The notes under the pieces were generated by a model. It searched no databases. It was not told the DNA's origin and saw only the letters and a program-made list of their open reading frames with translations. Shown here piece by piece: positions 46,131-48,677 of a DNA stretch of 64,000 nt (its first letter is position 1; each line of letters opens with the position of its first letter). Position numbers and translations under genes: made by a program. Where the stretch lies: NCBI GenBank assembly GCA_036362785.1, contig CP143625.1, forward strand, positions 1,179,401 through 1,243,400, read 5' to 3'. Source of the DNA: a beta proteobacterium MWH-UniP1. GTDB lineage: Bacteria > Pseudomonadota > Gammaproteobacteria > Burkholderiales > Burkholderiaceae_A.

Positions 46131-47669
46131 TTAGACCAACTGCGGATTGAGCCGCTCGACCTTGCTCTCGAGCTTATTCAATGCGTTCAGATAGGCCTTG
46201 GCCGAGGCCACGACAATATCTGGGTCTGCCCCCACGCCATTGACGATCCGGCCGGCCTTGGACAGCCGCATGGTCACCTCGCCCTGGGACTCGGTGCCCG
46301 TGGTGATGGCGTTAACCGAGAACAAGAGCAGCTCTGCCCCGCTGGCCACCTTGGACTCGATGGCATTGACCGTGGCATCCACCGGCCCATTGCCCTGGGC
46401 CTGGGTGGTGATTTCTTCCCCGTCCACGCTAAAGACCACCTTGGCCTGGGGTTTTTCGCCCGTTTCTGAGCGCTGGGACAAGGACAAGAATTTAAAGTGC
46501 TCGTCGGTCTCGCCGATGGCATCGCCCGAGACCAAGGCCTGCAAGTCCTCGTCGAAAATCTCAGACTTCCGGTCGGCCAAGTCTTTGAATCGTGCAAAGG
46601 CATCGTTTAAGGCCTGCTCGGATTCAAACTCGATGCCCAATTCAGCCAAACGCTGCTTAAAGGCATTACGGCCCGAGAGCTTGCCAAGGGAAATCTTGTT
46701 GGCCGACCAGCCCACATCTTCCGCCCGCATGATCTCGTAGGTCTCGCGGTGCTTGAGTACGCCGTCTTGGTGAATGCCAGACTCGTGGGCAAAGGCATTG
46801 GCCCCGACCACCGCCTTGTTCGGCTGGACCGGATAGCCCGTGATCTGGGAGACCAAACGGGAAGCGGTCACGATCTGGGTAGTGTCGATTCGGGTGTCGC
46901 ACTTAAAGACGTCTTGGCGGACTTTGACCGCCATCACGATCTCTTCCAAGCTCGCGTTACCCGCACGCTCACCCAAGCCATTGATCGTGCACTCGACCTG
47001 GCGGGCGCCGTTTAACACCGCCGACAAAGAGTTGGCCACGGCCATGCCCAAGTCGTTATGGCAGTGGGTCGACCAGATCACCTTGTCCGCACCCGGGGTG
47101 CGCTCAATCAGATACTTAAACCGCTCGCCCAACCCACCGGGCACGCTGTAGCCCACGGTGTCAGGCACGTTGATGGTGGTGGCACCGGCCTTAATCACTT
47201 CGCCAAAAACCCGGACCAAGAAGTCGATGTCACTACGAATCGCGTCTTCTGCGGAAAACTCCACATCAGGTGTGTACTGCAAGGCCATCTTCACGCCCTT
47301 AACAGCAGCCTCAACCACCTGATCGGGATTCATACGGAGTTTCTTTTCCATGTGAATCGGACTGGTGGCGATAAACGTGTGGATTCGACCCTTGGCGGCC
47401 GGCTTGATGGCCTCGCCTGCGGCACGAATATCTTTTTCCGAGACACGGGCCAAAGAGCAGACAGTGCTGTCTTTAATGGTCTCGGCAATGGAGCGAATCG
47501 CATCAAAATCGCCAGGGCTTGCGGCCGCAAAGCCGGCCTCGATCACATCCACACGCAAACGCTCCAACTGGCGGGCGATACGAATCTTTTCGTCTTTGGT
47601 CATCGATGCGCCGGGGCTCTGCTCACCATCGCGCAAGGTGGTGTCAAAAATAATTAAACGGTCATTCAT
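46131..47669 (-). CDS. leuA: 2-isopropylmalate synthase
   Basis: 512-residue enzyme making 2-isopropylmalate from acetyl-CoA and 2-oxoisovalerate, the first step of leucine synthesis. Motifs: [15 protein letters not shown], the metal-site [42 protein letters not shown] and a C-terminal regulatory LeuA dimer domain (feedback by leucine). AAAGGAAA precedes the start. A 228-bp leader between pssA and leuA contains a leucine-rich leader peptide and a terminator (listed separately). Confidence 0.97.
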
Positions 47670-47746
47670 GGTGGTTTCCTTTAACGAATGTCACCTGCTC
47701 TTTTCACAATTGAGCATGTTGACGTTGCTAGTTCTATTTGTTCGGG

Positions 47747-47782
47747 AAAAACGGTCTGCAGATTTAGGTCTCCGGCGCAGAC
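47747..47782 (-). terminator. Attenuator terminator in the leuA leader
   Basis: On the minus strand GTCTGC (47782-47777) pairs with GCAGAC (47759-47754) and is followed by CG and five T (47751-47747). Upstream lie GGGTTT TAG AAACCC (47800-47786) and the nested hairpin GGGTCGA...TCGACCC (47844-47810). Confidence 0.65.
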
Positions 47783-47819
47783 TGGGGGTTTCTAAAACCC
47801 TGCCGGTGGGGGTCGAGTG

Positions 47820-47888
47820 TTAGCGCCCGTGGCGCAGTCGACCCAGGGGAAGTAGGTGTAGAGAGGTAATGAAGGATTCAAAACTCAT
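47820..47888 (-). CDS. Putative leuA leader peptide (22 aa)
   Basis: ATG at 47888, nine bases past the pssA stop, opens MSFESFITSLHLLPLGRLRHGR. Five of nine residues from 10 to 18 are leucine or its neighbours: CTA, CAC, CTA, CTT, CCC, CTG, GGT, CGA, CTG. Codons 16-17 (GGT CGA) form one arm of the GGGTCGA/TCGACCC hairpin and the last codons form the inner GCGCC/GGCGC stem, so the ribosome position decides which hairpins can form. There is no clear Shine-Dalgarno; reinitiation after PssA is possible. Leucine attenuation of leuA is inferred from this layout and from analogy with enteric leuL. Confidence 0.6.
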   Translation of the reverse strand: MSFESFITSLHLLPLGRLRHGR

Positions 47889-47897
47889 AGGGATCAA

Positions 47898-48677
47898 CTA
47901 TAAATCTTTTTCCTCGGGTTCGGCAAATACTTCGATGGCCTCGCCCCTGGCCTTGCGCCAGACAAACAACACCCAGCCCGACAGGCCATAGGCCAGCATG
48001 AGCAAAAAGAGCAATGTGGGCGGGTCTTGGGAGATCAGCACCAGGCCCAGGGCAATCAGGAAGATCACCACAAAGGGCACACTACGGCGCAGATTTAGAT
48101 CTTTGAAGCTGTAAAAGGGCACGCTCGAGACCATGGTCAGGCCCGCGTAGACTGCCACCGACCAGCTGACCCAGCGAAGGTCTTTGGCTGACCAGTCAAT
48201 CCAGCGGGTCTCGCGAAGATCGGTGGCCACCCAGACCAACCCCGCCAGCAAGGCCGCTGCCGCAGGGCTGGGCATGCCTTGAAAAAACCGCTTATCGACA
48301 ATGGCGATGTTGGTGTTAAACCGCGCCAGCCGCAGGGCCGCCCCGGCAATGTAGACAAACGCAGCGAGCCAGCCAAACTTGCCCAGACTCTGTAGCGACC
48401 AGATGTAAATCACCAGGGCCGGTGCCACACCGAAGGCCACCATGTCGGCCAGGCTGTCGTACTGGGCACCAAAATCAGAAGTGGTGTTGGTCAATCTGGC
48501 CACACGGCCATCAAGACTATCCAGCACCATGGCCACGAAAATCGCGATGGCGGCCTCGGTGAAGCGGCCATTAAAGGCCTGAACAATCGAAAAAAAGCCA
48601 GAAAAGAGGCAGCCCGTCGTGAACAGATTCGGCAGCAGGTAGATGCTGGTGCGGCGACGCGGCAGTCTTTGATTCAT
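47898..48677 (-). CDS. pssA: CDP-diacylglycerol-serine O-phosphatidyltransferase
   Basis: 259-residue integral membrane enzyme making phosphatidylserine. The CDP-alcohol phosphatidyltransferase motif D-G-x2-A-R-x8-G-x3-D-x3-D is visible in DSLDGRVARLTNTTSDFGAQYDSLADMVAFG. Six to eight transmembrane helices. It sits with psd between ilvC and leuA, an arrangement that recurs in betaproteobacteria. Confidence 0.95.
   Translation of the reverse strand: MNQRLPRRRTSIYLLPNLFTTGCLFSGFFSIVQAFNGRFTEAAIAIFVAMVLDSLDGRVARLTNTTSDFGAQYDSLADMVAFGVAPALVIYIWSLQSLGKFGWLAAFVYIAGAALRLARFNTNIAIVDKRFFQGMPSPAAAALLAGLVWVATDLRETRWIDWSAKDLRWVSWSVAVYAGLTMVSSVPFYSFKDLNLRRSVPFVVIFLIALGLVLISQDPPTLLFLLMLAYGLSGWVLFVWRKARGEAIEVFAEPEEKDL

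Follow-up and report, generated by a model that had tools for sequence, protein, structure and literature searches.

Does the spacer between pssA and leuA in the betaproteobacterium MWH-UniP1 (order Burkholderiales) hold a regulatory leader for leucine synthesis and, if so, how would such a leader act on leuA? The spacer lies in a 64,000-nucleotide stretch (the window) from a genome (G000) of 2.05 Mb in one contig. On the minus strand of the window the genes follow in the order ilvB, ilvN, ilvC, psd, pssA, leader and leuA; the leuA, pssA and psd families were checked against NCBIfam, and ilvB, ilvN and ilvC were named by sequence only. Leucine attenuation is textbook knowledge in enteric bacteria, and the original prediction for this locus was a device of that type, with a 22-codon leucine-rich ORF carrying two CTA codons, a nested hairpin over the ORF end and a terminator in front of leuA. 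We propose that the spacer carries a leader-peptide attenuator that serves leuA alone and responds to leucine, a reading to which we give a probability of about 0.6. The sensing of leucine by leader translation is well supported, translation being judged from the conservation of the frame, while the acting half of the device is not settled. The features are collected in Table 1. Nothing resembling a leader for ilvB in the same cluster was obvious in the 172 bp upstream of that gene.

Table 1. Features of the pssA-leuA region, in window positions
Feature	Position	Strand	Basis or remark
-35-like hexamer TTGCCG within the pssA 3' end, 18 nt upstream of TATAGT	47921..47926	-	TTGCAG/TTGTCG there in relatives
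-10 box TATAGT, overlapping the pssA stop codon	47897..47902	-	family and order comparison
pssA stop TAG	47900-47898	-	direct reading
Leader ORF MSFESFITSLHLLPLGRLRHGR, 22 codons, stop included	47820..47888	-	direct reading; frame kept in 68/68 leaders
Leader ATG	47888-47886	-	
Leucine codon cluster CTA CAC CTA CTT CCC CTG, immediately 5' of hairpin P1	47844..47861	-	direct reading
Hairpin P1, across the ORF end and stop codon	47810..47844	-	folding and family comparison
P1 outer stem GGGTCGA/TCGACCC	47844-47838 / 47816-47810	-	
P1 inner stem GCGCC/GGCGC	47835-47831 / 47827-47823	-	
Leader stop TAA	47822-47820	-	
Pseudoknot-type element S1+S2	47754..47806	-	pairing in the family, covariation, energy scan
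S1, CCGGC with GCCGG	47806-47802 / 47776-47772	-	
S2, GTCTGC with GCAGAC	47782-47777 / 47759-47754	-	
GGGTTT-TAG-AAACCC hairpin inside pseudoknot loop L1	47786..47800	-	absent from all 16 aligned relatives
GGGTTT/AAACCC arms	47800-47795 / 47791-47786	-	private to the window genome
U5 run after S2 (GCAGAC, then CG, then U5)	47747..47751	-	2/17 family members
leuA ATG	47669	-	direct reading
leuA, type-1 2-isopropylmalate synthase, the putatively regulated gene	46131..47669	-	NF002087 and TIGR00973 above cut-off

The ORF is present as predicted, with leucine at codons 10 (CTA), 12 (CTA), 13 (CTT), 15 (CTG) and 18 (CTG). The window sequence alone does not go beyond chance (minimum free energy z = -0.94 for the region in single-sequence folding), and the significance of the leader comes from the comparison with related genomes. 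A terminator scan that accepts loops of at most 8 nt did not list the GTCTGC/GCAGAC stem. The covariance models of Rfam release 15 gave no match at the leader locus up to E = 5, and Rfam matches in the region were discarded as sub-threshold chance. Pfam and NCBIfam profiles gave no match for four leader peptides, a search whose sensitivity is limited by the shortness of the peptides.

In the family of the window genome, represented here by 26 genomes, the leader is present at 17 of 23 leuA loci. Among the usable loci, it stands between pssA and leuA at all seven of the same genus, at 10 of 11 in the sister genus and at none of five in a third genus. At the sister-genus locus of G001 (L018) it has been cleanly lost, and the leuA ATG occupies the position of the leader ATG; in the third genus (L021-L026), whose genomes are AT-rich and smaller, the leader is lost and leuA directly follows pssA. 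Using a family-specific pattern, 12 matching stretches were obtained from 84,980 species genomes, all of them MAGs labelled Burkholderiales, Burkholderiaceae or Betaproteobacteria. The family peptides end in LGRLRxGR or near variants, mostly after leucine-rich stretches such as ALLLPLGRLRLGR; in two members (L008 and L019) the leucine run has decayed and few leucine codons are left. By codon counts, the leader leucine codons of the window's genus are biased to rare ones: of the 36 leucine codons upstream of RLR, 22 are CTA or CTT, in sequences that are related and hence not independent, whereas over eight window genes the share of these two codons is about 10%.

For the order as a whole, the position of leuA was established in 150 genomes, and the upstream DNA was read in 120 genomes outside the window's family. 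A leader of the same plan was found in 69 of these 120 genomes, representing 30 of 45 families; two of the 69, L036 and L107, were identified by visual inspection. The common 3' end of these leaders reads CTG CTG CTG CGC NNN GCG CGC TAA and folds as a small hairpin, the arms of which co-vary in places, for example in L067 as GCGU/ACGC and in L074, around the stop codon, as GCGCC/GGCGC. At the neighbouring leader positions leucine is found in 62-74%, with synonymous codons mixed. The leaders in the order survey and in this count of leucine were selected by -10 score and leucine content, and three checks avoid this circularity: one on the reading frame, given here, and two on the enzyme and the promoter, given below. 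When leaders were chosen by -10 box, ATG and hairpin with the reading frame ignored, the CTG of P1 shared the frame of the ATG in all 68 leaders, from 25 families, with no premature stop. From family to family the ORF keeps its frame and its wealth of leucine codons.

The leader is also tied to one enzyme activity. The pattern CTGCTGCGCNNNGSGCGCTRA gave 31 matches in the 150 order genomes, all preceding a 2-isopropylmalate synthase (26 type-1 leuA genes, one leuA fragment and four type-2 genes), and the reversed pattern gave one match in the same genomes. Four genomes (G060, G104, G145 and G071) possess a type-1 leuA without the leader, and the motif precedes a second gene instead. In G060 this second gene is a type-2 2-isopropylmalate synthase (TIGR00970, 755 bits), and those of the other three match it over the whole length; further type-2 genes with such leaders occur at L179, L181, L186 and other loci. 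With the motif before either type of gene, the leader is tied to leucine synthesis whatever its position in the genome. That the leader belongs to pssA was rejected, as in other families it accompanies leuA away from pssA. The assignment of the leader to leuA, and its most likely role as a sensor of leucine, are borne out by its conservation, its frame, its rare leucine codons and this association. Spread beyond the order was also rejected: among 370 genomes drawn from the class, the pattern matched once, as often as its reversed control. A second leucine-rich, ORF-like element (..CGACTGC..GGTTGCCTGGCC, with a peptide ending in ..GCLA) is conserved upstream of type-2 leuA. It either follows the LLLRxAR leader, ahead of type-2 leuA, or takes the place of that leader, at L177, L178, L180, L182 and L183 and likewise at L185, L190, L196 and L199, and the two together may possibly represent tandem leaders.

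The leader also has a predicted promoter of its own at a conserved distance, with a -10 box that reads TATA[GT]T across families. In leaders picked by the 3' motif and a minimum leucine count, without use of the -10 box, TATA[ATG]T precedes the ATG in 62 of 67 order leaders, and 60 placements fall 6-9 nt before it, compared with 0.43 expected. From this spacing, transcription would start on the leader ATG or no more than about 3 nt from it, which implies that the leader mRNA is near-leaderless. The gap of nine bases between the pssA stop and the leader ATG can thus be understood as promoter spacing, the conserved -10 box lying on the pssA stop. leuA had been taken for an internal gene of a multi-gene operon; with the conserved TATAGT it probably has its own transcription start, besides any read-through from ilvB. 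The suggestion that leuA could be tuned apart from ilvBNC stands, given this promoter. In the sister genus (L009, L014, L015 and others), a conserved TACAATC or TTAATC directly follows the 3' arm of S2; it might be a second leuA -10 box or part of the output step.

Two RNA structures follow from the end of the ORF onwards. First, the nested hairpin of the original prediction is present and is kept, as P1, in all family members with the leader, with a compensatory change in the outer stem in G008. It is retained in G002, G003 and G011 despite a moved stop codon. Arrest by the nascent peptide through its LRx[AG]R end was set aside, as the end residues vary (RY, RT, RS) and P1 is kept; because the residues change with the moved stop while P1 stays, RNA structure better explains the conserved leader end. 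Second, P1 is followed in the family by four arms in alternating order (S1 5', S2 5', S1 3', S2 3'). An automatic scan for H-type pseudoknots recovered S1/S2 in 15 of 17 family members, in which L1 measures 1-4 nt, L2 0-1 nt, S2 6-7 bp and L3 6-12 nt. The stem energies are about -23 to -28 kcal/mol (mean -24; mean of shuffles -2), and 10 of 600 control windows from the same loci reached -23, some of them overlapping the element itself. The GGGTTT/AAACCC stem of the original prediction is also present where it was placed, but it is an insertion private to the window genome and accounts for the long L1 of 19 nt there; with a loop of this length allowed, the energy there too is -24.5, a value reached by one of 72 controls. 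Over the whole structure, 92.7% of the cells of a core alignment pair (24-43% in slid controls) and 18 cells are double-changed (6.6 in shuffles), numbers which lean towards this structure as the alignment was built by hand, fitted to it and trimmed of its loops. The covarying arms themselves are visible in the unaligned sequences, as CCGGC/GCCGG, GCUGG/CCAGC and GUCGG/CCGAC for S1 and as GUCUGC/GCAGAC, GUCCGC/GCGGAC and GCCUG/CAGGC for S2.

Using these parts, the following course can be proposed for the attenuator. Transcription would start at the promoter within the pssA end, and a ribosome would at once translate the short ORF. When leucyl-tRNA is scarce, the ribosome would stall on the rare codons CTA, CTA and CTT, whose downstream edge lies in P1, and P1 would open; in the window's genus, the 3' arm of P1 could then invade the S2/S1 junction (about -13 kcal/mol), and leuA would be expressed. 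With leucine in good supply, the ribosome would reach the UAA and cover the 3' arm of P1, and the pseudoknot, which begins about 13 nt past the stop and just beyond the ribosome footprint, would stay folded, so that leuA transcription would be cut short. The output might run through a weak U5 terminator in the window genome and perhaps through Rho elsewhere. A further-reaching form of this proposal, a betaproteobacteria-wide near-leaderless leucine leader on two distantly related synthase types, with the family pseudoknot at the edge of the terminating ribosome as the off-state and no intrinsic terminator, is tentative, and we put it at a little under even odds.

Strong U-run terminators stand behind diverged leucine-rich leaders at L104, L146 and L147 and at the type-2 loci L187, L191, L193 and L198, which indicates that a transcriptional output exists in the group. 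Intrinsic termination as the conserved output was rejected, as a U-run follows S2 in 2 of 17 family members only (the window genome and G004); outside the family, at least five U follow the conserved hairpin in 13 of 67 leaders. One alternative that needs no U-run is Rho-dependent: the leader ribosome would decide whether Rho loads on C-rich, G-poor RNA past the stop, and the pseudoknot or hairpin would mark the remaining RNA ends. In line with this, the first 20 nt after the stop in the 67 leaders outside the family are rich in C (48 then 39%) and poor in G (5 then 9%), and a conserved hairpin lies about 30-60 nt past the leader stop (about stop+32; mean z = -1.8), mostly without a U-run. The C-rich tract is short, however, and only in part present in the window's family, and the shielding of the tract by a ribosome stalled upstream is left without explanation. 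We regard the Rho-dependent version as a genuine possibility that falls clearly short of even odds.

A classical enteric-type attenuator in the window genome, with S2 and U5 as terminator and the 3' arm of P1 pairing with GCGCC as antiterminator, fares less well, and we consider it unlikely. All its parts are found in the window, G004 also has the U-run, and the 2:3 pairing, in which the 3' arm of P1 joins the S2/S1 junction, has an energy of about -13 kcal/mol in six of the seven members of the genus. For five of them, 4-9% of shuffles do as well, and the pairing is weak or absent, and without significance, in the sister genus and not significant outside the window's genus; a classical antiterminator is supported only in that genus. 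Six of the seven genus members, furthermore, lack the U-run while having the same S2, which has a long loop and only 6 pairs. The GTCTGC/GCAGAC sequence with its five U is present as described, and S2 with U5 is possibly a weak, non-conserved intrinsic terminator in the window genome, but the stem is one half of the pseudoknot-type pair.

It is similarly doubtful that S1 and S2 act as a switch between two hairpins that exclude each other. The arms abut, steric exclusion is imaginable, and the pairing data alone fit both readings; the H-type geometry of the 15 family members is of the textbook kind, though, and in a crude energy estimate the pseudoknot beats any nested fold by about 2.7-5.5 kcal/mol in 15 of 15. 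This estimate favours a single predicted H-type pseudoknot, with alternative hairpins as the competing reading. A pseudoknot as an order-wide feature was rejected (mean -4.2 for the 67 leaders outside the family and -3.0 for shuffles).

Control of translation or mRNA stability, in which leader and pseudoknot would govern the translation or decay of leuA and not termination, appears improbable. The U-run is not conserved, and actinobacterial leuA is also preceded by a pseudoknot and a leucine-rich leader (PMC1262725), both of which would suit such control. Against it, modelled ribosome positions gave no consistent change in access to the leuA Shine-Dalgarno sequence (15 up and 20 down of 84), and the distance from the pseudoknot to that sequence varies widely. 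Outside the family, neither the C-rich tract nor the 3' arm of P1 paired with RNA further downstream or with the Shine-Dalgarno region more than by chance, and the leucine codons showed a weak excess of pairing with that region (their mean percentile was 0.37, and 10 of 67 leaders had 0.05 or less, where 3.4 are expected). A chance ORF with hairpins in the spacer, as the unremarkable single-sequence fold might suggest, is refuted by the conservation across family and order and has a negligible probability. As a separate observation, a motif CCCACAATTCG lies about 10-25 nt past the leader stop in many families outside the window's (8-9 of 67 exact 9-mers).

Compared with known leaders, the proposed attenuator combines familiar features in a different arrangement. 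As in enteric leuL, a short leucine-rich ORF with a hairpin near its stop codon precedes leuA. The enteric leader (leu operon leader, leuL) is represented in Rfam by Leu_leader (RF00512). Unlike it, the window leader has no Rfam match and a start that is putatively near-leaderless, its hairpin P1 extends over the ORF end, a pseudoknot-type element replaces the conserved terminator, and leuA would be controlled from inside an ilv-psd-pssA-leuA cluster. The actinobacterial LEU element consists of a candidate leader peptide with a leucine run and a conserved pseudoknot 5' of leuA without an obvious terminator; its leucine codons pair with the leuA Shine-Dalgarno box, and control of translation or stability was suggested (PMC1262725). 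The likeness to the window locus, with its leucine-rich leader and predicted pseudoknot before leuA, is one of features. In the window the pseudoknot lies wholly 3' of the leader stop, and in the leaders outside the window's family no strong pairing with the Shine-Dalgarno box was found. In the Epsilonproteobacteria, Campylobacter LeuL has rare leucine codons at the C-terminal end of its peptide, 5' of leuABCD (PMC3847290; ribosome profiling PMC11955535), and the window leader shares the bias to rare leucine codons. Unlike the putatively near-leaderless window leader, LeuL is described as having a site for ribosome binding and giving rise to a terminated short RNA, and it is not known to have a counterpart of the pseudoknot or the C-terminal LRxAR hairpin. 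A leaderless attenuator RNA that begins with the leader ATG itself is known from Sinorhizobium meliloti trpL (PMC7298713), which the window leader would resemble in its start at or near the ATG, as judged from the -10 spacing; trpL responds to tryptophan, has a classical terminator and produces a known trans-acting sRNA and peptide, whereas the window leader would sense leucine and its terminator is not conserved. No leader of betaproteobacterial leuA was found in Rfam, NCBIfam, Pfam or the open-access literature searched, a scope that cannot settle priority. A survey from 2004 reportedly treated proteobacterial attenuators.

In conclusion, an unannotated short ORF is present in most families of the order and stays with the enzyme activity even where this is provided by a different type of synthase. 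For annotation, a rule is gained by which such leaders can be recognised: a leucine-rich ORF, a CTGCGC hairpin at its stop and a -10 box 6-9 nt before its ATG. If the pseudoknot is the regulatory output, the family would possess an attenuator that works without a conserved terminator.
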